From NCBI GenBank assembly GCA_013140455.1, contig JABFSU010000065.1, forward strand, positions 1 to 36,502: a stretch of DNA of 36,502 nt, in the 5' to 3' direction. This stretch comes from Nitrospira sp. GTDB lineage: Bacteria; Nitrospirota; Nitrospiria; Nitrospirales; Nitrospiraceae. The translations under genes were made by a program, and so were the position numbers. The notes beneath the pieces are model-generated. The model was not told the DNA's origin, made no database searches, and saw nothing but the letters and a program-made list of their open reading frames with translations. Positions 8,015 to 26,823 of this stretch are shown in pieces (within the stretch, counting starts at the first letter, position 1; each line of letters begins with the position of its first letter).

Positions 8015-11000
8015 GCTCGCTTCGGGCCGGCGGCGCAAATCGAGGGTCAAGGGAAAGTCCCGGTTCCGCTCTTCAGGCCGGACCGTCATGGGTCCCGGCG
8101 TATGACCATAATCCCAGAAACGTGCCATGCGACGGGCTTCGGCTGCGTTCGCGTTGACCGGGAACGAGGGGGAGCTCCGTCCGCCCGGATGCACGACATG
8201 GTAGGTGCATCCGCCGATGGCGCGTCCGGTCCAGCTGTCGACGAGATCAAACACCAGCGGGGACTGGACCGGAATGGTCGGATGCAACCCTGAAGGCGGT
8301 TGCCAGGCCTTATAGCGGACCCCCGCCACAAACTCGCCGCGCGTTCCGGTCGGATGGAGCGGGACCGGACGACCGTTGCACGTCACGACGTGGCGTGTGT
8401 CGGTCATGCCGTTGACTTTGACCTGTACCCGTTCCACTGAGGAATCCACATAGCGTGCGGTGGCGCCCGCGATCGTTTCCTCCCCCAACACATGCCACGG
8501 TTCAATGGCCTGACGCAGTTCGAGCTCAATGCCGTCAGCCACGACACTGCCGTATCGGGGAAAGCGAAACTCAAGAAACGGGGCAAACCACTCGCCACGA
8601 AACGGATATCCACCGGCCTGTAAGTCCCACATCACGTCCTTCACATCTTGCGCGACGAAATGAGGCAGCATAAACCGGTCATGCAATTCAGTTCCCCAGC
8701 GCACCACCTGAACTTGGTAGGGCTGGTTCCAGAACTTCGCGACGAGGGCCCGCAGCAGCAACATCTGCGACAAACTCATCCGGGGATGAGGCGGCATTTC
8801 AAAGGCCCGAAATTCCACCAGGCCCAGGCGTCCCATCGCGGAGTCCGGCGAATAGAGCTTGTCGATAGAGAATTCCGCGCGGTGCGTATTGCCGGTCAGA
8901 TCCACGAATAAATGTCGCAAGAGGCGGTCCACCAGCCACGGCACCGGAGTGTCCTGCCCGGCCACCTGCCTGGCGGCCATATGCTGAAACGCGATCTCGA
9001 GTTCATACAGGTGATCGTGGCGCGCCTCATCGACTCTCGGCGCCTGGCTGGTCGGTCCCACAAACATGCCGGAGAACAGATAGGACAACCCGGGATGATT
9101 CAGCCAATAAGTGGTGAGGCTCCTGAGCAGATCCGGACGGCGCAACATCGGACTGTCTGCCGGCGTGAGGCCGCCTAAGGTCACATGGTTCCCGCCCCCG
9201 GTGCCGGTATGGCGCCCATCGAGCATGAACTTTTCAGTACCCAACCGTGATTGACGCGCCTCCTCATAGAGGATATGCGTCGTGCTGACCAGTTCATTCC
9301 AGGTCTTGGCCGGGTGAATGTTGACCTCAATCACACCCGGATCGGGAGTGACTTTGAACGACTGCATGCGGGGATCATAGGCAGGCGGATAGCCTTCCAC
9401 CCAGAGAGGACTGTGCAGCTCAGCCGCCGTCTGCTCAACCGCGCCGATCAGATCGAGGTAATCTTCCAGATAGGACTGCGGCGGCATGAACACGTGCAGT
9501 CGCCCCTGCCGGACTTCGACGCACAAGGCTGTTCGAAGCACAGCGCGAGCCGATTCACCGACCGCCCAGGCCGTGGGAATCGAGTGTTGCCGTTGATCGG
9601 GTGCGCCCGGGTTGCGCGTGTGAGATCTGGCCGGCCCCAAGGAAGATTTACGCCCCTCCAACGGGTCGCGTTCCAGTTCGATCTCGACATCTTCCGGAGC
9701 TGCCCAAGGGAGCGCCGTCAAAGGCAGTCGATAGCCCATCGGTGAATCTCCCGGTAACAGATATAGCCGTCCCCGCTTCAGCGGCCAGGGACCGGAGATC
9801 CATTGGGACTTGTACGGCCACGAGCGGGGGAGCGCCGGCGACGCCGCGGCTCTCAGCGGCAAGACATAACCGGCCACTTCCCCCAGCCCGCGATCCAGCA
9901 AGCGCGCCAAGGTGCGGCGCTGCTCCGGATCCTTGAGGTCCTGTTGCAGCGGGTCCACATTGACCGGCAGCTTCTGTTCCTCCGTCAGGTAATGCCAGAC
10001 ATCTTCGTAGGCAGGGATGGCAAACGCCGGATTCAGATTCAGCCGTTCGGCCAGCCTGGTCACAAACTTCTGCGCGTGCTCAGCCGAATAGCCGTAGGAG
10101 ACTGCTTCATCGGCGACCAGTCCCGGATCATGCCACACCGGCTCGCCATCCAGCCGCCAATAGCATCCCAACGCCCAACGCGGCAGCGATTCTCCCGGAT
10201 ACCATTTGCCCTGACCGTAGTGCAGCAACCCGCCCGGCGCAAAGCGATCCTTGAGGCGCGTGAGCACGTCGCCGGCAAGGGTGCGCTTGGTGGGACCGAG
10301 CGCATCGGTATTCCACTCCGCGCCCTCCATGTCGTCGATCGAGACAAACGTCGGTTCGCCTCCCATCGTGAGGCGCACATCGCCCGCCAGCAAATCGGCA
10401 TCGACCTGCCGCCCCAGCTGTTCGATGGCGCCCCATTGCTCGTCGGTATAGGGCTTTGTGACGCGCGGATCTTCGTGAATCCGCGTGACCGACATGCTGA
10501 CGTCCAGCTCGGATTCGCATACATCGGTACGGCCGATCACCGGCGCGGCACTGGACGGAGAGGCCGTGCAGGCCAAGGGGATGTGCCCTTCTCCCGCCAG
10601 CAGGCCGGACGTCGGGTCGAGGCCGATCCAGCCGGCCCCGGGAATATAAACCTCCGCCCAGGCGTGGAGGTCGGTGAAATCCTGCTTGGGCCCGGCCGGT
10701 CCTTCGAGCGGCTTCATATCGGCCGTCAACTGAATCAAGTACCCGGACGCAAACCGCGCTGCCAGGCCGAAGTTCCGTAGAATCTGCACCAGCAACCAGC
10801 CACTGTCACGACACGAGCCCTGTCGCGATTGCAGTGTCTGCTCACAGGTTTGAACGCCCGGTTCCAGCCGGACAATATAGTCGATATCTTTTTGCAGCCG
10901 TTGATTGAGGCGAACCAGAAAATCATTAGTGAGGGGTGACTCACCGCGGTCGGCATCCTTAAACCGTTCCACCCAGGCTGCGAGCAACGGCCCGCAGGGT

Positions 11001-15080: not shown

Positions 15081-15397
15081 GGCACGCCGCGTGAACAAGC
15101 GGGGAAAATGGCTTCCGATCCAGTCACCGTCACCCGTTTCATATCCGAGGCGGCCGAGGATGAGGATGTGACCAAGGCACCGCCGCCCCGCCCTGATCGG
15201 AAGCCTGCGCCAAGGGATTTACCTAGTGGCGCGTCTGCAATCTGACTGGTACACTAAAATTACGTACTCACACAGAAGGCAGACATTGCCTTGCGCAAGA
15301 GCTGGTAACACGCCCTGTGTCGAGCCTCCCTCTTGGGCTTCTTGTTCGGCTCGTTGCTTACCAAGACAATGCCTACCTCTCACAAGGAGGTGGAGGC

Positions 15398-15652
15398 ATG
15401 GCGTCAAAAATCTACATCAGCGGTTTCCCGCCCTCGTATACCCAGGGACAACTCCGCCAGATCTTCGTCCCGTTCGGGAAGGTGGAGTCGGTGCAAGTCC
15501 TGCGGGATGCGCGAGGCTATTTCGTGGGAGTCGTGCAAATGTCCTCCCCGGAAGACGTGGAGCATATCTTCGGGGCGCAACAGGTCTTCAAAGTGGACGG
15601 CAAGCATCTGGATATCTGGGAACCCCCGGAAACAGAGAGCGCGCAGAACTGA
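15398..15652 (+). CDS. Small RNA-binding protein with one RRM domain
   Basis: This 84-residue protein is a single RNA recognition motif. RNP2 is IYISGF (residues 5-10) and RNP1 is around RGYFVGVV (39-46); the middle aromatic of RNP1 is replaced by Val, so RNA stacking may be weaker. ATG 15398 follows AAGGAGGTGGAGG, which rules out the longer frame from 15317. Bacterial one-RRM proteins of this size resemble the cyanobacterial Rbp family, RNA chaperones often induced by cold. The ~300 bp upstream (15081-15397) holds no gene and probably contains its promoter and leader. Confidence 0.85.
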   Translation: MASKIYISGFPPSYTQGQLRQIFVPFGKVESVQVLRDARGYFVGVVQMSSPEDVEHIFGAQQVFKVDGKHLDIWEPPETESAQN

Positions 15653-17227: not shown

Positions 17228-17524
17228 CTAGTTCCGGCTTTTCCACATCTCGGGATGTCTATGCAGATGCAGCACTGCCAGAACATCGACACGTTCGTCG
17301 CCGATCAAGAAATACACACCATAGGGAAAGTGCCGGAGCAGCGCCCGGTGCACCGTTTCTTCCAGACGCGGGAATTGCCGGGGATTCTCGACGATGCGAT
17401 GGAACACATGATCGAGTTCGTCGAGGAACTTCCCTCCCAAACCGGGCCGTTGGTCTTCGTACCACACCGCAGCCGCTTGGATATCGAGTTCAGACTGAGG
17501 CTGGATAAGAAACTGCCGGGCCAT
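17228..17524 (-). CDS. RelE/ParE-family toxin
   Basis: This 98-residue protein has the plasmid-stabilisation (ParE/RelE) fold: ELDIQAAAVWYEDQRPGLGGKFLDELD at the N-terminus, then NPRQFPRL and the strand RHFPYGVYFLIGDERVDVLAVLHLHRHP. This type, paired with the short antitoxin next to it, is usually ParE-like or RelE-like; whether it hits gyrase or mRNA cannot be told from the sequence. It starts 8 bp after the antitoxin stop. It lies close to the defence island but outside its direct repeats. Confidence 0.88.
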   Translation of the reverse strand: MARQFLIQPQSELDIQAAAVWYEDQRPGLGGKFLDELDHVFHRIVENPRQFPRLEETVHRALLRHFPYGVYFLIGDERVDVLAVLHLHRHPEMWKSRN

Positions 17525-17532
17525 CCGTCAGA

Positions 17533-17772
17533 TCAACGTTCGCGCAATTTGCGCTCAATATCTGAACGAACATCGGTCCACGATCGGCCGACGCCGGGGT
17601 TCGCCGTATACGCCGCCAAGCGCTCCCGGATGATGTCGTGATGCCATTCAGGCACCGGGACCTGCTCGGAAGTCGCAGCGATCCGATCCCACAACGATTG
17701 CACGAAGTCGATTTGCTCATCGACCGGAAGATCGTCAAACCCGGGAGGAGGGGTGGGAACCATCTTGGCCAT
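17533..17772 (-). CDS. Addiction module antitoxin (short helical type, PF09720-like)
   Basis: This 79-residue, charged, helical protein has the family core DLPVDEQIDFVQSLWDRI followed by PVPEWHHDIIRERLAAYTANP. This is the usual text of short antitoxins that precede ParE/RelE toxins. ATG 17772 has AAGGAG upstream. It is translated just ahead of the toxin and neutralises it by direct binding. Autoregulation from the promoter at 17795-17823 is likely by analogy. Confidence 0.88.
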   Translation of the reverse strand: MAKMVPTPPPGFDDLPVDEQIDFVQSLWDRIAATSEQVPVPEWHHDIIRERLAAYTANPGVGRSWTDVRSDIERKLRER

Positions 17773-17936: not shown

Positions 17937-18494
17937 TTAGTCCTTGCCATTCTTCGTCACAATATTCGTGGGAATGTCGTCGAGGCTGAATTGGTTCCTC
18001 TCCTCGCGGTATTGCCGCAACCCCTCCTCGCCTTTCTTGGCGGCCCACTCGTTCAGCAACTCGCGGTCGCCGGTGTAGGAGAGATAGGGCACCGCCATGC
18101 CGCAGGAAGTTTGCACGAGATCGAGCGTCACGTCGAAGATCTGCCGCGCGCCAGGCAGCGGAGGGAACAAAGAAGAAAGCTCGCGCCATTCCGGATCGCC
18201 CTGGTGAACGACGGTCGCAGAGCCGTAAAGCCGCAGAATGACCGGTGGCCCCTCGAAGGCGCAGAACATCAGCGTCATGCGGGGGTGATGCTGGACATGA
18301 GCCGACGTTTCATTCCCGCTCCCAGTCACATTGAGCCAGGCGACACGCCGGGGACTGAGCACGCGCAGAGAATCCATCCCCTTGGGAGACACATTCACCC
18401 GGCTCTCCGCCGTCGCGGTGCCGACAAAGAAAATCTTCTGCTTGCCGATAAATTGGATATGCGTGTCAGAAAGTTCGTCGTATCGCTGAGCCAT
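17937..18494 (-). CDS. Pyridoxamine 5'-phosphate oxidase-like FMN-binding protein
   Basis: This 185-residue protein has the split-barrel flavin fold of the PNPOx-like superfamily. The N-terminus reads QKIFFVGTATAESRVNVSPKG, followed by SPRRVAWLNVTGSGNETSAHVQHHPRMTLMFCAF, the usual FMN-contact region. It is probably an FMN- or F420-like-dependent reductase of unknown substrate rather than true vitamin B6 PdxH, which it does not closely resemble. Its first 34 codons and ~220 bp of upstream DNA are repeated at 21344-21659 on the far side of the restriction-modification genes, so it is the left boundary of the island. Confidence 0.85.
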   Translation of the reverse strand: MAQRYDELSDTHIQFIGKQKIFFVGTATAESRVNVSPKGMDSLRVLSPRRVAWLNVTGSGNETSAHVQHHPRMTLMFCAFEGPPVILRLYGSATVVHQGDPEWRELSSLFPPLPGARQIFDVTLDLVQTSCGMAVPYLSYTGDRELLNEWAAKKGEEGLRQYREERNQFSLDDIPTNIVTKNGKD

Positions 18495-18712
18495 GGCGTG
18501 GTCCCTTCGGCGGATGAATCATTCAATCAATGAGTCGCTGGACTGCCCCTCGCCGTGCTTGAGCGCATACCCATGCGTATCCGGTGGAATCACGACAGAC
18601 CCTCACGAGTATTTCGAATTAGCAGACTGAGCGAGATCTGAGTGAGGCAGGATTGTGGCGAGCAGACAAGGCGCTGTCAATCAGGGGCGGGAAGAGATGG
18701 CCGCGATCACAT
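18392..18712. repeat. Left copy of the long direct repeat flanking the RM genes
   Basis: It spans the first 34 codons of the PNPOx-like gene (minus strand) and the DNA upstream of it. It matches 21344-21659 in the same orientation. The offset is 2952 bp in the coding part and 2947 bp further on, a 5-bp indel. The coding 103 bp differ at 9 positions. Confidence 0.85.
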
Positions 18713-18814
18713 TATCTTCTCTTGCTGCCGAATGAATCTTGAACGAGAACCGCAGACAAGTTACTATCAGCCGCACCTATTCCCCTACTCCTCTCCGGAG
18801 AATTCGAGGCCCTC

Positions 18815-20524
18815 GTGGCAGACAACCAATTCAGCCCATCGGTCGCAACACGAGGCATCCAACTTCCGTTGATCGCGCCCCTCCGACGCCCGCTTCCGAT
18901 TACCGCAATTGAGCCGAAAGGCGTCGTCTACACAAAGCGATGGGTCGTTGAGCTACTCCTCAATCTGAGCGGCTATAGCCCGGATAAGAATCTGGTGGAC
19001 AGCCTGGCAATCGAACCAGCGGCCGGCGACGGTGCGTTTCTCGGCCCCATGATCGAGCGCCTAATAGAATCGTGCCGAAAGCTCGGCCGATCGCTGCCTG
19101 ATTGCCGGGACTCCCTAAGAGCCTATGAACTGGATGAGAAAAGTGCGGCTCGTGCGCGCGCTGTCGTCCAAGAGATCCTTATTAAGCATGGAGCAAAGAG
19201 CCCACTCGCAAAAAAACTGGCTGACGCGTGGGTAGTACAGGGGGATTACCTTCTGGATGCCGACCAGAGACAAGCCGACTTCATTATCGGAAATCCTCCG
19301 TATGTACGCCTTGAAGATATTCCGGAAGACACAGCTTCGGTCTACCGCAGCGCGTATCCGACGATGCGCGGAAGAGCAGATCTCTACGTGGCGTTCTTCG
19401 AAGCCGCACTTCGGCAATTGAAAACCGGCGGGGTATGCGCCTTCATCTGCGCTGACCGATGGATGCGCAACCAATATGGAGCTGAACTGCGGCAACTGAT
19501 TAGTTCGGCGTACAGTGTCGAGCTGCTCCTCAGTATGCACCACGCCAATGCCTTCGATGATGACGTGGACGCCTATCCGGCCATCACAGTCATCCGACAC
19601 GCAAAGCAACTGTCAACTGTGGTAGCACGCGCTGATCAGGACGCTGAACACATTCAGCCAAAACAATTGGCAACAGCACTTCAGACCAACAACCGCGACC
19701 TCCTGCCCCAAGGCATCCATCGAGCCGATGTACACACATGGTTCAAAGGGTCAGATCCCTGGCCTTGCCATTCACCGGAACAGCTGGCGCTCCTCCGACG
19801 ACTGGAAGATCAGTTTCCTCCCCTTGAACTGAATGCCAAGGTGGGAATCGGCGTAGCCACAGGGAACGATCGGGTCTACATCACGACAGAAGCAGACCTG
19901 GTGGAGCCCTCCCGCCTCCTGAAGCTTGCACTGGCGAAAGACCTGGCGGACGGAACGGTTCGATGGTCCGGGCACTATCTCGTGAGTCCATGGAATGATG
20001 ATGGGCTGGTCAATCTGAAGACTTACCCGAAGTTGCAGGCCTACTACGAACGACATGCCGAAGCCCTGAAGAAGCGCCACACCGCGGAGAAGAGCGCCGA
20101 CAAATGGTACAAGACGATTGACCGCGTCAACCACACGCTCACACGCGCACATAAACTGTATATTCCGGATATCAAGAACACACTCGAGCCGGTCTTAGAT
20201 CGTGGCGAAACCTACCCGCACCACAATCTGTATTTCATTCAGTCGGATGAGTGGGATCTGGAAGTACTCGGCGGCCTTCTGCTGTCGAAGGTGGGACAGT
20301 TTTTTGTCGAATCCTATGGAGTCCGCATGCGAGGCGGCTACTTGCGCTTCCAAGCGCAATACCTCCGCCGGATTCGCGTCCCTGCGCCTCAGTCCCTATC
20401 TAAGCCCCAATCACAGGAATTAAGAGACGCCTTCCGCCTTCGTGATAGGACCCGTGCAACCCAAGCGGCGTTGGATCTATATGGAATCAGCACTAGCACG
20501 CTGGAGGCCGCGCTTGAACATTGA
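18815..20524 (+). CDS. N6-adenine DNA methyltransferase of a XhoI/PaeR7I-type RM system
   Basis: This 569-residue protein has the amino-methylase signatures in gamma order. Motif I is EPAAGDGAF (67-75), which binds S-adenosylmethionine. Motif IV is NPPY (160-163), which makes it an adenine-N6 methylase. The C-terminal half (TaqI-type specificity region, GIGVATGNDRVYI and later GGLLLSKVGQFFVESYGVRMRGGYLRF) reads the target. The partner nuclease is of the XhoI/PaeR7I family, so the target is predicted to be CTCGAG. The start is a GTG at 18815 with GGAG upstream. Several CTCGAG sites occur in this window (for example 8996, 11135, 20183, 22415) and would need its protection. Confidence 0.88.
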   Translation: MADNQFSPSVATRGIQLPLIAPLRRPLPITAIEPKGVVYTKRWVVELLLNLSGYSPDKNLVDSLAIEPAAGDGAFLGPMIERLIESCRKLGRSLPDCRDSLRAYELDEKSAARARAVVQEILIKHGAKSPLAKKLADAWVVQGDYLLDADQRQADFIIGNPPYVRLEDIPEDTASVYRSAYPTMRGRADLYVAFFEAALRQLKTGGVCAFICADRWMRNQYGAELRQLISSAYSVELLLSMHHANAFDDDVDAYPAITVIRHAKQLSTVVARADQDAEHIQPKQLATALQTNNRDLLPQGIHRADVHTWFKGSDPWPCHSPEQLALLRRLEDQFPPLELNAKVGIGVATGNDRVYITTEADLVEPSRLLKLALAKDLADGTVRWSGHYLVSPWNDDGLVNLKTYPKLQAYYERHAEALKKRHTAEKSADKWYKTIDRVNHTLTRAHKLYIPDIKNTLEPVLDRGETYPHHNLYFIQSDEWDLEVLGGLLLSKVGQFFVESYGVRMRGGYLRFQAQYLRRIRVPAPQSLSKPQSQELRDAFRLRDRTRATQAALDLYGISTSTLEAALEH

Positions 20525-21281
20525 CAGGAGATTGCAAGCCGCCGTCCAGAGCTACTGGAACGCCCGCAGGACAAACAAAGAAAAGCAGGTCAAGTCGGGG
20601 AAAATCGATGCCGGAACCAGAGGGGAGGTCACAGGAGGCACTCAGATGGGTGCCCTGGAGGTCTTGGTTTCTGACATTCTTTGCGAAGCCGGATTGAAGA
20701 AGGTCGATATCCGCACAAGAACCGCGCTTGAGTTACCGGGTTACTTCAGAGCCACGAAAAAGTGGGATCTTATCGTTGTCTCCAACAGCGCGTTGGTCTT
20801 GGCGATGGAGTTCAAATCCCAAGCCGGCAAGTCGATCGGCAACAATGTGAACAATCGTTCGGAAGAAGCGGTGGGCAGCGCCAAAGATATCTGGACGGCA
20901 TTCCGAGAAGGCCGCTTTGGTCAGGCGCCTCCTCCATTCCTCGGCTATCTGTTCCTCTTAGAAGATCGTGACAATGTCAAAATCCCCGTTGCCAACAAGG
21001 AACCATACTTCCAGGTAGACCCCGAGTTCCGCGGCGAAGCACATTTCAAGGATACAACAGCCCTCCGACGGTACAAGGGAGTCTCCTACAGCAAGCGCTA
21101 CGAACTTTTGTGTCGCCGCCTAGTACTGGAGCGGCTGTATAGCTCGGCCTGTTTTATGATGGCCACTAATTCACCAAAGACGAAAGTCACGCAGCCGGCT
21201 GAAGACCTCAATTTCCAGCGCTTCGTCGCCGCCCTCCGAGGTCATGTCGTCACATTCCTGGGCAGCCGTAGTAAAAACTAA
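20481..21281 (+). CDS. XhoI/PaeR7I-type restriction endonuclease (predicted CTCGAG)
   Basis: The nuclease closely follows the XhoI/PaeR7I family. SYWNARR and the GKIDAGTRGEVTGGTQM block come first. The PD-(D/E)xK core is built from WDLIVV (Asp96) and AMEFKSQ (Glu110, Lys112), followed by GNNVNNRSEEAVGSAKDIWTAFREG, a family hallmark. ATG 20481 overlaps the methylase end by 44 bp, which suggests coupled translation. A TTG at 20514 is another possible start and would fit family N-termini equally well. The overlap delays nuclease production behind methylase. No separate control protein gene is visible. Confidence 0.88.
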   Translation: MESALARWRPRLNIDRRLQAAVQSYWNARRTNKEKQVKSGKIDAGTRGEVTGGTQMGALEVLVSDILCEAGLKKVDIRTRTALELPGYFRATKKWDLIVVSNSALVLAMEFKSQAGKSIGNNVNNRSEEAVGSAKDIWTAFREGRFGQAPPPFLGYLFLLEDRDNVKIPVANKEPYFQVDPEFRGEAHFKDTTALRRYKGVSYSKRYELLCRRLVLERLYSSACFMMATNSPKTKVTQPAEDLNFQRFVAALRGHVVTFLGSRSKN

Positions 21282-21343
21282 TCAGCACCGTCACGCGCGC
21301 TGGCACGGCAATCAGAAATGTAGAATGTCCCTGTTTTCTGGCC

Positions 21344-21446
21344 CATTCACCCGACTCTCCGCCGTCGCGGTGCCGACAAAGAAGATCTTCTGCCTACCGA
21401 TGAATTGAATGTGCGTGTCCGAGAGTTCGTCGTATCGCTGAGCCAT
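21344..21446 (-). pseudogene. Truncated 5' fragment of a PNPOx-like gene
   Basis: This encodes the first 34 codons of the gene at 17937-18494, from ATG 21446 down to 21344, where similarity stops abruptly. Of nine base differences, eight are synonymous and one changes Lys to Arg. The fragment therefore diverged while part of a working gene, probably in another lineage, before it was cut. Confidence 0.85.
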
Positions 21447-21659
21447 CGTGTTGCCCTTACCGTTGATTCGTCCCGCGAAAGTCGATGGAGCACCCCTCAC
21501 CGCGCTTCAGTGCATACCCATGCGTATCAGGTGGAATCACGACAAACCCTCACGAGTGTTTCAAAGCAGCCGTTTGAACTAAATCTAAACGAGGCAGGAT
21601 TGTGGCGAGCAGACAAAGCGCTGTCAATCAGGGGCGGGAAGAGATGGTCTTGATCACAT
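21344..21659. repeat. Right copy of the long direct repeat flanking the RM genes
   Basis: Counterpart of 18392-18712. It includes the truncated gene fragment and the upstream segment with gcatacccatgcgtat and the GAGGCAGGATTGTGGCGAGC block. Homology ends near gatcacat at 21659. The remaining 21660-21735 shows nothing recognisable. Confidence 0.85.
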
Positions 21660-21735: not shown

Positions 21736-22194
21736 CTATTTCACCGCCTTAGCTGAAGCGGGAGCGATAGAATCAGTCGAGCTGCGACCCAGTGCCATCC
21801 TGACCCTCAAAATGCATCGAGCTCCCCCCTTGGCGGTAAGTTCGTGCTGCCATATCCGGAGCACGTGCCATCCACCCTTCCTCAAAGTACGCGTCACCAA
21901 ACGATCACGATCCTTATTGCGAAGCAGCTTCTTTTCCCAGAATGCCCGGTTAGTCGCAGGCTGGGACGCGTGCTTCGGACAGCCATGCCAGAAACAGCCG
22001 TCCACAAATATTGCGAGGCGATGCTCACGAAATACAAAATCTGGGTTACCGAATAGCTTGGGGTGGCGACGCCAACCAGTGATGCTATGCTGCCGGAGGA
22101 GCTTTACCAACGCCAGTTCCGTCTTGAGATTCCCCTGCGCTCGGACACGAGACATTATTTGTGAGCGCTTCGCCTTGGGGTATATATCGGCCAT
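21736..22194 (-). CDS. vsr: Very short patch repair endonuclease
   Basis: This 152-residue Vsr protein nicks T:G mismatches left by deamination of 5-methylcytosine. The catalytic Asp52 (GNPDFVF) and His70/His75 (FVDGCFWHGCPKH) are in place. Of the structural zinc ligands Cys67 and Cys72 are present. The usual later Cys in the W-x-C motif reads WQH, so His117 may be the fourth ligand. It is divergent from the GHKL gene and accompanies the cytosine methylase at 25689-26735, whose mutagenic side effect it would repair. A ribosome site AGGA precedes ATG 22194. The region is more A+T-rich than the chromosome around it. Confidence 0.92.
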   Translation of the reverse strand: MADIYPKAKRSQIMSRVRAQGNLKTELALVKLLRQHSITGWRRHPKLFGNPDFVFREHRLAIFVDGCFWHGCPKHASQPATNRAFWEKKLLRNKDRDRLVTRTLRKGGWHVLRIWQHELTAKGGARCILRVRMALGRSSTDSIAPASAKAVK

Positions 22195-22279
22195 ACTGGA
22201 GTTTCCTGTAATGCCGACATGTTTACAAGAGGTCCACCAGAATCAGTCTGCACATACGAATCCAGAAAGGCCCCGCACA

Positions 22280-22308
22280 TTGTTTTGTTTAAGCAACACC
22301 TTTATTAT
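22280..22308 (+). promoter_or_regulatory. Predicted sigma-70-type promoter of the GHKL-REC-dcm operon
   Basis: TTGTTT (22280-22285), a 17-bp spacer and TATTAT (22303-22308). Transcription would start near 22315, leaving a short leader before the GHKL gene. It lies in the 156-bp divergent gap shared with vsr. Confidence 0.45.
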
Positions 22309-22350
22309 CTTAACCACGCAGGTCCTCCGCCCTAGCGATCCGTGAAAGCC

Positions 22351-24537
22351 ATGCCAAAAGTTTCAAGTGAATCAAAGATAACCGAACCAACAAAGATCCC
22401 CTTCACTCTGCACCCTCGAGTATTCGCCGCGCTTGGCGCAGACTTAGTAACAAGCGACGTCGTTGCGATCATTGAACTGGTAAAAAATTCCTACGATGCG
22501 TTTGCAACACGTGTGGACGTACGATTCGTCACCGATACTGCAGGCCGCCCAATGCTTGAGATCGAAGACGACGGTTGCGGCATGACAAGGGAAATTATCG
22601 AAAACGTTTGGTGTCTTGTTGCAACGCCGTTCCGCGAGCAAACAACGGTTTCAAAGCGGGGGACTGAGTCTCGCCGGGTAACCGGCTCCAAAGGGCTAGG
22701 ACGACTATCTTCCGCACGGCTTGGCAAACATCTGGAAATGCTGACAAAAACCAAGGATGGCGAGTGCTGGCAAGTAGAAGTTTCATGGACAGCCCTCTCA
22801 AAAGTAGCGTCTCTGGAGGACTGCTCAATCACAATTCTCAAGAAGAATGGCGACGAGCTGGCTGCCGAGTCGGGAACACGGCTACGGATTCAAGACCTTA
22901 ACTCTGACTGGGAGGACAGGGAGTCGGGTGCGCCAGAGAATAAAATTGACGAACTTCAGGAAGGCTTATCACGCCTAAGCCCACCATTTGAAAAGCTCAA
23001 CAAGTTTACAATCCTTCTTACTCGCCCCGGCGCGGGATCGGAACCGCTTGAAATCAAGCCGTCTGAACTGCTCGAAAATCCCGTCTACCGTATCGAAGGC
23101 AGTTTTAGCACTGACGGAAAGCTATCTTACCGGTATACACACAAACCTTTCTCATGTGCAGGGAGAACCGTAAAAAAAGAAAAGCGTTGGAGCACCGTAC
23201 TAGAAGACTTGAAATCATCGGTGAAACGAGCGAGGCTTGGCGAAACAAGGCCGTCTTGCGGACCATTTTCATTCGAGATTCGCGCGTGGGACTTAGACCC
23301 TGAGAGTATCAGTGAGGCTGTTCAACAGTTCGACCTTCATAAAAGGTCGGCCGTACGGAACGAAATTCGTGCATTCAAGGGGATATCTCTCTATCGAGAC
23401 AATGTGCTTGTCCTTCCCAAGTCTGAAAATACGCGCGACTGGCTCGGCCTCGATCTCCGCAGGGTCAGTAAGGTTGGCTCTCGTCTCAGCACAAGCCAAA
23501 TTGTTGGCTATGTCAGTATCGGCGCTGACGCAAATCCTGGCATCGCGGACACAAGCGACCGCGAACGTTTAGCGCGAGGCGGAGCGGTCGAAGAATTTGA
23601 ATCATTACTTCAGTACACTGTTACCCTACTGGAAAACGAACGCGATCAAGATCGAGCAAAAAAAGAACCTGAACCCACCGAACTCTTCGCAGCCCTCAGC
23701 GCCGATAAACTCGTCAGCGAAACCCAGGATCTTATCAGCGAGAAAGCTTCCGCCTCAGAAGTGTTGCCATTACTTACTCGCTTCGATGAGGATCTGCAAA
23801 GAACTCGAAAGAGAATTGAAAGCACCTTCAATCACTACAGTCGTCTCGCGACCATTGGGCTACTCGCACAACAACTCGTACATGAAGTCGGGAACAATAC
23901 CTCAATCATCCATGAGTTCATTGAAGTCCTGAAAGCACATTGGGCAAAGACCGGACAGGACCATGAGTCTATCCGACGCGCGCTCAACCTTGCCGAGAAT
24001 GCCCTTGCATCGTTGCAACGACTTGCCGAGCGGTTCCGCCCCCTTGCTAACCGTGGCTTCACACGCGGGAAACGCAAAGCATCATTGAGAGAAACTATAG
24101 CCACTTGCCTAGAGGCCAGGAAGCAAGAGATCGAGCGGCGCAAGGTAAAAATCGATTTGCGGCTTCGGGGTCATGACGAAGTGCAGGCTGATCCCGGTGA
24201 ATTATACGCCGTGTTCATTAACTTGCTCGACAACGCACTCTATTGGATTGAACGATCACAGGAAAAGAATGAACGATTGTTGCGGATTCAGTCTTCACCC
24301 AGCCGCATCAAAGGGCGCATCGAATGTGAGGTTCATGACTCCGGCCCCGGCGTACCCAAAAAAGACCAACAGAAAATCTTTTGGCCTGGATACACGCACC
24401 GACCTAGCGGGTACGGAATGGGATTGACAGTTGCCGGTGAAATTATAGAAGGCCATGGTGGGAAATTACGCATTTTAGAAGAAGGACGCATTGGTGGTGC
24501 GTCTTTCATATTCGACCTACCTCAATCGTCAACTTGA
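22351..24537 (+). CDS. Dual-GHKL protein: MutL/MORC-like ATPase plus histidine-kinase core
   Basis: This 728-residue cytoplasmic protein has no membrane segment. Residues ~20-160 are a first GHKL ATPase of the MutL/MORC/Hsp90 type: Glu42 and Asn46 (ELVKNSYDA), DDGCGM at 73-78 and the lid GSKGLGR at 112-118. A ~300-residue middle region is unassigned. A complete kinase core follows: H-box HEVGNN with His511 in the HExxN pattern, N-box with Asn624/Asn628 (NLLDNA), DSGPGVP and GYGMGLT. It is followed 7 bp later by a receiver-domain gene, its probable phosphorylation partner. GTG 22342 is an alternative start; the ribosome site is poor. MutL-like ATPases are known from some RM operons; the fusion to a kinase core is the odd part. 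Confidence 0.85.
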   Translation: MPKVSSESKITEPTKIPFTLHPRVFAALGADLVTSDVVAIIELVKNSYDAFATRVDVRFVTDTAGRPMLEIEDDGCGMTREIIENVWCLVATPFREQTTVSKRGTESRRVTGSKGLGRLSSARLGKHLEMLTKTKDGECWQVEVSWTALSKVASLEDCSITILKKNGDELAAESGTRLRIQDLNSDWEDRESGAPENKIDELQEGLSRLSPPFEKLNKFTILLTRPGAGSEPLEIKPSELLENPVYRIEGSFSTDGKLSYRYTHKPFSCAGRTVKKEKRWSTVLEDLKSSVKRARLGETRPSCGPFSFEIRAWDLDPESISEAVQQFDLHKRSAVRNEIRAFKGISLYRDNVLVLPKSENTRDWLGLDLRRVSKVGSRLSTSQIVGYVSIGADANPGIADTSDRERLARGGAVEEFESLLQYTVTLLENERDQDRAKKEPEPTELFAALSADKLVSETQDLISEKASASEVLPLLTRFDEDLQRTRKRIESTFNHYSRLATIGLLAQQLVHEVGNNTSIIHEFIEVLKAHWAKTGQDHESIRRALNLAENALASLQRLAERFRPLANRGFTRGKRKASLRETIATCLEARKQEIERRKVKIDLRLRGHDEVQADPGELYAVFINLLDNALYWIERSQEKNERLLRIQSSPSRIKGRIECEVHDSGPGVPKKDQQKIFWPGYTHRPSGYGMGLTVAGEIIEGHGGKLRILEEGRIGGASFIFDLPQSST

Positions 24538-24544
24538 GATTTGC

Positions 24545-25684
24545 ATGACCTGTCGCATTTTAATTGTTGAGGATGATGCGGTAATGGCAGAAAGCCTGGA
24601 GAATACCCTGCGACGTGAACTTGGGGAGATAGAAGTCATTCGTGTCAGTGATTTTGCGAAAGCACCCAATGAGATCGCCACCAAGCTGCCCGATATCGTC
24701 GTGCTTGATATTTTTGATGAACAGATTGAGCAACCGGCCAAAGATGCGGTAAAGCCTGCCTGGGATACTGTTTGGGCTGCGCATTTTTGCCCGGTCGTAT
24801 TTCATTCGGCACAGGAAGACCAGGACTACAAAAGTATCAACCATCCTTTCGTACGCTATGAGATTAAAGGAGCAGGCAGTCAAGGTCGCGTTGCAAACCA
24901 CATCAAATCATTCGCGCCAGAAATTGAAGGGCTACGCACCGTGCGGCAAGAATTATCGCGGAGTGCTGGGGAAACATTGCGTGACGTTGGCCCCCTTATT
25001 TGGCAATCAGGCAATCCAACCACGGAACAAACCGATCTATTCTTACGTGTGGCCAGGCGTCGAATGGCAGCAGCGCTCGATTATACGGCCGAACCCGAGA
25101 AACAAACTCAGGCTTGGGAGCAGTATATCTACCCGCCCATCGGTAGCGATCTGCTAACTGGTGACCTCATACGAGTCACGACTGAAAGTGAGACCGGACC
25201 CACTGCATATCATGTTGTTTTATCCCCTTCTTGCGACCTTGCTCGAGGGCCAGGCCGAAATCCGCTTCTGCAAATTCTGGTGGCGGACTGCGTGCCAATC
25301 CAAGACTTCCTAGTTGCAGCAAATGTGCTTCCAGCAAATGTGGATTCAACGAAACCCCTGACTTCCGGTCAACGCAAAAACCTACTTTCACAACTTAGCA
25401 AAGACCAAATTGCAGGCCTAACTGTTATGCCTGAGCTTCCCAATGTACTTCCGCTCATGGCAGCAAATCTCAAGAAGCTCTCACTTCTTCCTTACTGCGA
25501 CATCGCGCCAAAAAAAGATGAGAATAAACGGTTTTTCCGTGTTGCGAGTGTGGATAGCCCGTTTCGTGAACGGTTGGCATGGGCGTATCTCCAAGTCGCC
25601 GGACGCCCAGGAGTCCCCGACGTTGACCGAAACGCGCTAGCCGATTCTATCGCTCAACCCATTCCGCCCATGACCAAAGTCTAG
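24545..25684 (+). CDS. Receiver-domain protein with unrecognised C-terminal domain
   Basis: This is a 379-residue protein. Residues 1-~125 form a receiver domain with all active-site residues: Asp10/Asp11 (VEDD), phosphoacceptor Asp55 (IVVLDIFDE), Ser88 (FHSA) and Lys108 (EIKGAG). A linker helix region follows, then a ~240-residue domain I cannot assign. It contains a conserved-looking HVVLSPSCDLARGPG motif and later LLPYCDIAPKK. It has no helix-turn-helix, so it is probably not a plain transcription factor; an enzymatic or binding effector is possible. ATG 24545 sits 7 bp after the GHKL stop, and dcm follows after 4 bp, so all three are co-transcribed. Confidence 0.8.
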   Translation: MTCRILIVEDDAVMAESLENTLRRELGEIEVIRVSDFAKAPNEIATKLPDIVVLDIFDEQIEQPAKDAVKPAWDTVWAAHFCPVVFHSAQEDQDYKSINHPFVRYEIKGAGSQGRVANHIKSFAPEIEGLRTVRQELSRSAGETLRDVGPLIWQSGNPTTEQTDLFLRVARRRMAAALDYTAEPEKQTQAWEQYIYPPIGSDLLTGDLIRVTTESETGPTAYHVVLSPSCDLARGPGRNPLLQILVADCVPIQDFLVAANVLPANVDSTKPLTSGQRKNLLSQLSKDQIAGLTVMPELPNVLPLMAANLKKLSLLPYCDIAPKKDENKRFFRVASVDSPFRERLAWAYLQVAGRPGVPDVDRNALADSIAQPIPPMTKV

Positions 25685-25688
25685 CAAG

Positions 25689-26735
25689 ATGTACGCTATC
25701 GACTTCTTTTGCGGAGCTGGCGGACTGACGAGAGGATTTCTTGACGCCGGGATTCGCGTTGTAGCCGGACTGGATATTAACGAAAACTGCCGACGCACAT
25801 ACGAATCAAACAATAATCCTTCGAAATTCCTAGCTTGTGATTTACGCAAAATACGTCGCCAGGATTTGGAGCGGTATGTCGGTGACATTCCACCTGACGA
25901 ACTTGTATTCGCCGGCTGCGCTCCATGCCAACCGTTTAGCAAGCAGAGACGTGAAGTAGACGGCCGGGACAAAACTCTTCTCTCCCACTTTGGACGACTC
26001 GTCAGTGAATTTCTCCCGGGTTTTGTAGTTATTGAAAATGTCCCGGGGATCGTAAAGCTTCCCGGCAATAGCACCTATCGACGCTTCATTCGACAACTCC
26101 GATCCCTTGGCTACGAAGTTAGCGAAGGCGTCATTGACGCCAAGTTTTTCGGGGTTCCGCAAACACGCCGTCGCTGGGTCGTAATTGCCAGTCGGCTTAC
26201 CAGGCCCGAACTGCCCATGCCAACACACGGGGTGAATGGAGCACCTTTCGTCACTGTGCGCGATGCTATCAAACACTTTCCACGACTTGAGGCAGGCGAG
26301 CAAAGCGTGGCGGTACCGAATCATCGTGCGGCAAGCATCGCCCCAAACAACATTCGTCGTCTCAAGGCTACTCCACCCGATGGCGGGAGCCGAAAAGAGT
26401 GGCCCAATGAACTGGTACTTGATTGTCATCGCGGAGAATATCGGGGCCATTCGGATGTCTATGGTCGCATGCGATGGGATGCGCCGGCACCAGCGCTAAC
26501 GTGCAAGTGCTACAGTATTTCTAATGGCCGTTATGGACACCCTGAGCAGCATCGCGCAATATCGCTTCGAGAGGCGGCCAGACTCCAATCCTTCAGGGAT
26601 GATTTTATTTTCTACGGCAAGACACAAGGGGAGATTGGCACTCAGATTGGTAACGCCGTTCCTGTAGAACTTGCTCAGCATCTGGCTAAAACGGTTATGA
26701 ATCTCCGCAGGCAAACAAATAGAAAGCGCAGCTAG
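25689..26735 (+). CDS. dcm: DNA (cytosine-5-)-methyltransferase (Dcm/HpaII-like class)
   Basis: This 348-residue C5 methylase carries its motifs in normal order. Motif I is DFFCGAGGLTRGF (5-17). Motif IV is APCQPFS with nucleophile Cys80. Motif VI is ENVPG (116-120), motif VIII is QTRRR (158-162), and motif X is GNAVP near the C-terminus. The target-recognition region lies between ~190 and 280; its target cannot be read. It ends the GHKL-REC operon and pairs functionally with vsr. No cognate restriction nuclease gene is adjacent, apart from the separate XhoI-type system, which uses adenine methylation. Confidence 0.93.
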   Translation: MYAIDFFCGAGGLTRGFLDAGIRVVAGLDINENCRRTYESNNNPSKFLACDLRKIRRQDLERYVGDIPPDELVFAGCAPCQPFSKQRREVDGRDKTLLSHFGRLVSEFLPGFVVIENVPGIVKLPGNSTYRRFIRQLRSLGYEVSEGVIDAKFFGVPQTRRRWVVIASRLTRPELPMPTHGVNGAPFVTVRDAIKHFPRLEAGEQSVAVPNHRAASIAPNNIRRLKATPPDGGSRKEWPNELVLDCHRGEYRGHSDVYGRMRWDAPAPALTCKCYSISNGRYGHPEQHRAISLREAARLQSFRDDFIFYGKTQGEIGTQIGNAVPVELAQHLAKTVMNLRRQTNRKRS

Positions 26736-26823
26736 ATATACATTCCCCCTCTCCGCTGACATCCCCTCCCAGGTGTGCTACAAACCCGCCATATAAATGG
26801 TTGGGCTTTTCGGTGACACTCTC

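Follow-up and report, generated by a model that had tools for sequence, protein, structure and literature searches.

Insertion of restriction–modification (RM) units with long target duplication was reportedly described by Nobusato in 2000 and by Furuta in 2010. Another route, homology-facilitated illegitimate recombination, is known from the transformation literature: it has one homologous and one illegitimate end and leaves donor and resident alleles partly duplicated, features which the Nitrospira locus described here would share, as read from its anatomy. According to the sections of a review considered here, RM units insert with long target duplications whose length varies and is on the order of 100 bp (PMC3874152). 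Movement of PaeR7I in the laboratory, mostly linked to IS copies, is described in the relevant part of another paper (PMC3031569), and an H. pylori case in parts of two others (PMC1643837, PMC4978471). None of the papers listed by the literature searches dealt with this Nitrospira locus. As far as the considered parts of these descriptions go, the locus resembles the long-target-duplication cases in that the RM genes lie flush between direct target repeats of about 100 bp or more, no transposase is present, and relatives are single-copy. It differs from them in two respects: the Nitrospira repeats are 15% diverged and are not sisters by the AU test, and similar duplications occur here also around non-RM cargo in a relative (G050).

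The RM genes and the repeats that bracket them

The window, i.e., the whole analyzed stretch of 36,502 nucleotides, corresponds to contig C92 of a draft genome in 143 contigs. It carries an intact PNPOx-like flavoprotein gene on the minus strand (17937–18494, ATG at 18494; Pfam PNPOx_N, E 9.6e-10), with Nitrospira records as the closest named relatives of the protein. Just downstream of this gene, at 17228–17772, a ParE-like toxin and an addiction-module antitoxin were recognized as a pair by Pfam. The start of the PNPOx-like gene (its first 103 nt) and some 215 nt of upstream leader/promoter sequence are present twice in the same orientation: as copy c1 (18392–18712, plus strand), which includes the 5′ end of the intact gene, and as copy c2 (21344–21659, plus strand), which contains a truncated PNPOx start of 34 codons with its ATG at 21446. 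A promoter-like TTGACA-17-CACAAT sequence inside c1, upstream of PNPOx, was read by eye at 18652–18680 on the minus strand; the promoter-like region was conserved among relatives in a six-row alignment. The preliminary description was therefore right that chromosomal DNA repeated in direct orientation brackets the RM pair and that the PNPOx-like 5′ end with its upstream region stands on both sides of it. It gave no divergence of the copies, which are in fact only about 85% identical (268 of 315 aligned columns, seven gap positions), the longest exact run being 30 nt. A search of the own genome with c2 as a query matched c1 at E 4.5e-90, so the likeness of the two is not due to chance.

Between the repeats, at distances of 102 nt from the end of c1 and 62 nt from the start of c2, lie two genes of the plus strand. 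M (18815–20524) encodes an N6-adenine methyltransferase of 569 aa with an NPPY motif and an Eco57I/TaqI_C domain. R (20481–21281, ATG at 20481 in an ORF opening at 20442) encodes an XhoI/PaeR7I-family endonuclease (Pfam XhoI PF04555, E 2e-68). By the XhoI-family R and the adjacent N6-adenine methyltransferase gene, the pair is assigned on sequence to the PaeR7I/XhoI type; type II RM systems of this kind likewise have an XhoI-family R beside an Eco57I/TaqI_C-type N6-adenine methyltransferase. Among the ten matches listed, the best matches of PaeR7I-family plasmid proteins to the Nitrospira R were 37–49% identical, and the CTCGAG specificity is a predicted one. No PDB relative of R was found at E 0.01. 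In a sample of the own genome CTCGAG was approximately threefold under-represented (8 observed vs. 26 expected). Sampled relatives without the RM were equally depleted (9 vs. 27.8), so the rarity of the site is uninformative on the RM, and its avoidance was dropped as a mark of RM activity.

The RM block (18713–21343, plus strand) abuts both repeats, and its outer ends are nearly the same in relatives: window DNA homologous to G068 extends over 18719–21351, to G015 over 18734–21344, to G018 over 18734–21345, and to G017 over 18734–21337. The last three genomes carry the block at a different locus, beside a RecB-like region (gene name assigned by eye). Endonuclease matches at E 0.001 or better were obtained in 19 of the 79 genus genomes, own included, a count that takes in two short fragments (G021, G054); the RM contexts of G041, G053, G003, G076, G075, G052, and G030 were compared with the window by DNA only.

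Several candidate movers of the block were rejected. The repeat scan revealed no inverted pair of 20 nt or more at the block ends, shorter ones being judged by eye only, and the composite transposon reading, which calls for inverted repeats at the ends, was discarded. No match to an integron integrase exceeded the cut-off in the genome, which ruled out the integron cassette reading. A REP/Y1 transposase was rejected as well, the single Y1_Tnp gene of the genome being on another contig. At the right end of the block (21315–21331, plus strand) there is a dispersed motif, GAAATGTAGAATGTCCC, which occurs at 13 genomic places when two mismatches are allowed, vs. none for the reversed control. At locus L162 (G000:C131, 2505–13719) a related motif like GAAATTCAGAATGTCCCCGTTTT recurs after successive genes on one strand, and at L161 (G000:C121, 7240–9408) a unit of about 1084 bp with the same motif is tandemly repeated.

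The insertion site in related genomes

The PNPOx gene was detected in 8 of 79 genus genomes, own included, with a protein identity of 84–91% in the seven relatives. These seven and the named locus L013 were taken into the locus comparison; in G067 the locus is split over two contigs, its right side being on another contig. Homology to the six remaining relatives (G068, G050, G002, G070, G038, G039) stops upstream of the PNPOx promoter and, by DNA comparison, resumes at about 26744–26797, the right border of the region. Between the borders all six have different material (cargo genes were named by eye, except for matches of the window's own RM), which identifies the site upstream of the PNPOx-like gene, at the sequence level, as a cargo hotspot.

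Directly to the right of c2 there is a second module, absent from the preliminary description. It comprises a Vsr endonuclease gene (21736–22194, minus strand) and three plus-strand genes, which encode a protein combining an HSP90-like GHKL domain with a histidine-kinase-like one (22342–24537), a REC-domain protein (24491–25684; weak Pfam match, below cut-off), and a Dcm-type C5 methyltransferase (25689–26735; PF00145, E 4.2e-54). Together, these four genes (21736–26735) may represent a signaling-coupled restriction module. At its N terminus, the GHKL protein weakly matched BbrUII/HgiDII restriction enzymes. Used as a query against the 79 genus genomes, it yielded one match besides its own at E 1e-20 or better, in G027, which was weak (29% identity) and covered the kinase part only. 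At L013 (1382–4788), the corresponding locus of another Nitrospirota genome, Dcm-type, GHKL ATPase-like, and Vsr genes were named by eye, the Vsr stretch having 84% DNA identity to that of the window.

With c2 as a query, one PNPOx start was found in each of the seven relatives. The endonuclease is absent in six of them and present in G068. The comparison with RM-less relatives proposed in the preliminary description thus came out as expected there: 6/6 RM-less PNPOx-bearing genus genomes have a single PNPOx start, and none of the six examined carries both copies. In G068 the RM is located at the same locus and is 88% identical to that of the window. This genome has extra leader/promoter fragments, one of them to the left of its RM (L092, 7601–7742), and a short leader/promoter remnant to the right of it (10497–10542); at its right joint the RM meets a different part of the leader. 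A leader segment flanks a small insert on either side in G050 (query positions 1–233 and 185–314), where no second PNPOx start occurs.

Duplications of a comparable kind were observed elsewhere. In G050 (L093, 3876–5825), a 139-bp duplication of the PNPOx 3′ end (131/139 identical) encloses TPR-like and lipoprotein-like genes (names by eye), which are not RM-like. In G017 (L138, 8770–10480), the RM block lies beside a second, diverged version of the RecB promoter region (77% identical to G015, the native copy being 95% identical). These two cases indicate, as judged from the alignments, that cargo here, whether or not it includes RM genes, comes with partial and in many cases diverged duplicates of host gene ends; because the G050 cargo is of the non-RM kind, repeat bracketing is not peculiar to RM genes. 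Direct repeats were also searched for around the RM genes of ten other loci. G017 gave an interpretable 39-nt pair; G003 carries related RM genes between two direct 135-nt repeats of 73% identity (L145, 5552–5686 and 9760–9894); in G005 both members of an 80-nt pair were on one side of the RM genes.

Ancestry of the two copies and age of the RM

A longer form of the leader is kept in G068 and L013, and both c1 and c2 derive from such a longer sequence. The internal deletion in the c1 leader is the same as in G038/G039; that of c2 is a different one, the same as in G050. In trees of the repeat, c2 was placed with G050/G002/G070 (support 90/97 or 99/98). The AU test rejected c1 and c2 as one clade with all 11 rows (p 0.0234), with the seven fully covered rows (p 0.0135), and with the noncoding columns alone (p 0.0303), these being modest p-values from short sequences of 7–11 rows. 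In their noncoding part, c1 and c2 are evidently of different ancestry. The native flank continues from c2 and not from c1, with matches up to 21677 in G070 and 21682 in G002. In the 102 coding nucleotides alone the copies join with weak support (43/74), and they share Gly17, which is absent in 12 other sequences. The coding part of c2 is unlike those of G050/G002/G070 (80–83 of 102 positions identical), and the repeat region can therefore be regarded as a mosaic.

Of nine coding differences between c1 and c2, eight were synonymous and one changed a codon nonsynonymously; under random change the expected synonymous share is 0.22–0.26. Most of the divergence thus seems to have arisen while both copies belonged to working genes. 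The identity at third positions was 26/34 (76%).

At fourfold sites, the window and G068 agreed at 69% in M and 71% in R, vs. 77% in PNPOx, 78% in the lipoprotein-like gene, and 81% in the gene at 15386–15652 (42 sites). Since the RM is at least as diverged as its neighbors, the sequences speak against any recent exchange of it between the window species and G068. The RM may already have been at the locus in the ancestor of the two, and its divergence from G068 is the best argument in favor of an old insertion.

Origin of the bracketed arrangement

We give about an even chance to the explanation that the RM genes came on DNA from another Nitrospira, one side being closed by homologous recombination and the other by an illegitimate joint, so that homeologous repeats remained. 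A PaeR7I-type RM block would have entered the hotspot upstream of the PNPOx-like gene on DNA of another Nitrospira lineage. On the PNPOx side, homologous recombination would have joined the donor PNPOx 5′ end, promoter, and RM; on the other side, an illegitimate joint would have closed within the resident gene, at codon 34. The product would be an intact gene with c1, followed by the RM and then by c2, the resident start in truncated form, still attached to its native upstream flank. The anatomy, the flush ends, the single copy in relatives, and the different noncoding ancestry of c1 and c2 are observed, and the donor, the crossover points, the resident copy, and the illegitimate joint are what we infer; c1 is taken as incoming and c2 as resident because c2 alone runs on into the native flank. 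The 15% difference and the apparently different ancestries of the copies make arrival with a relative's DNA more likely than simple duplication of the landing site. The different leader deletions, the AU rejection, and the synonymous excess agree with import, as do the RM block with similar ends at the RecB-like locus (G015/G017/G018) and the diverged promoter copy in G017. Against it, neither a donor nor a near-identical strain was found, the coding parts of c1 and c2 group weakly and share Gly17 in a mosaic region, and the RM of G068 at the same locus has a divergence that fits long residence.

The preliminary description had proposed insertion with long target duplication. The flush bracketing and the single copy in RM-less relatives stand; the sister relationship of copies that such an event produces was not found for the whole repeat (AU p 0.013–0.023) or for its noncoding part, and a simple recent target duplication is ruled out by the 15% divergence together with the AU tests. 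The main rival is an old duplication of the type reported by the Kobayashi group, to which we assign a smaller but substantial probability: a single RM insertion in an ancestor shared with G068 would have duplicated about 320 bp of target, after which the copies drifted and exchanged with other lineages. The presence of the RM at this locus in G068, flanked left and right by leader/promoter fragments, an RM divergence of at least that of the neighboring genes, and the shared Gly17 would all fit, and the third-position identity of c1 and c2 approximates that between the window and G068 in PNPOx and the lipoprotein-like gene (76–77%). This explanation has to face the AU tests, leader deletions that differ and are common to different relatives, mostly synonymous changes in a fragment expected to drift freely, and the G068 right joint at another part of the leader. 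General recombination at the hotspot (unequal exchange, repeated cargo swaps), unrelated to the arrival of the RM, would account for the G050 duplications around non-RM cargo, the several leader fragments in G068, and the different cargo of all six contiguous-locus relatives; we consider it unlikely as both repeats start and stop exactly at the ends of the RM block. An assembly or binning artefact could be suspected in a draft of so many contigs and is very improbable: copies 15% apart make collapse or false duplication unlikely, both flanks are syntenic with G038, and the RM occupies this locus also in G068, a separate assembly.

Excision of the RM by recombination between c1 and c2, also suggested in the preliminary description, is possible in principle. 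Recombination between repeats at 85% identity with short exact runs is inefficient, and the efficiency expected here is low, given such identity and a longest run of 30 nt.

Under the import explanation, we tentatively suggest that cargo and defense units of Nitrospira may spread from species to species by carrying a piece of host promoter and gene end, with one side joined homologously and the other illegitimately. Homeologous promoter scars would then mark successive imports, and some "target duplications" of RM units might be such imports. The locus presents an environmental RM unit moving with no transposase in sight, and the relatives are numerous enough to tell apart landing-site duplication and import with a homologous arm, two models with an identical footprint. 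How far the two copies have diverged and what ancestry each has can discriminate between these models, and the test is applicable to the published long-target-duplication cases.
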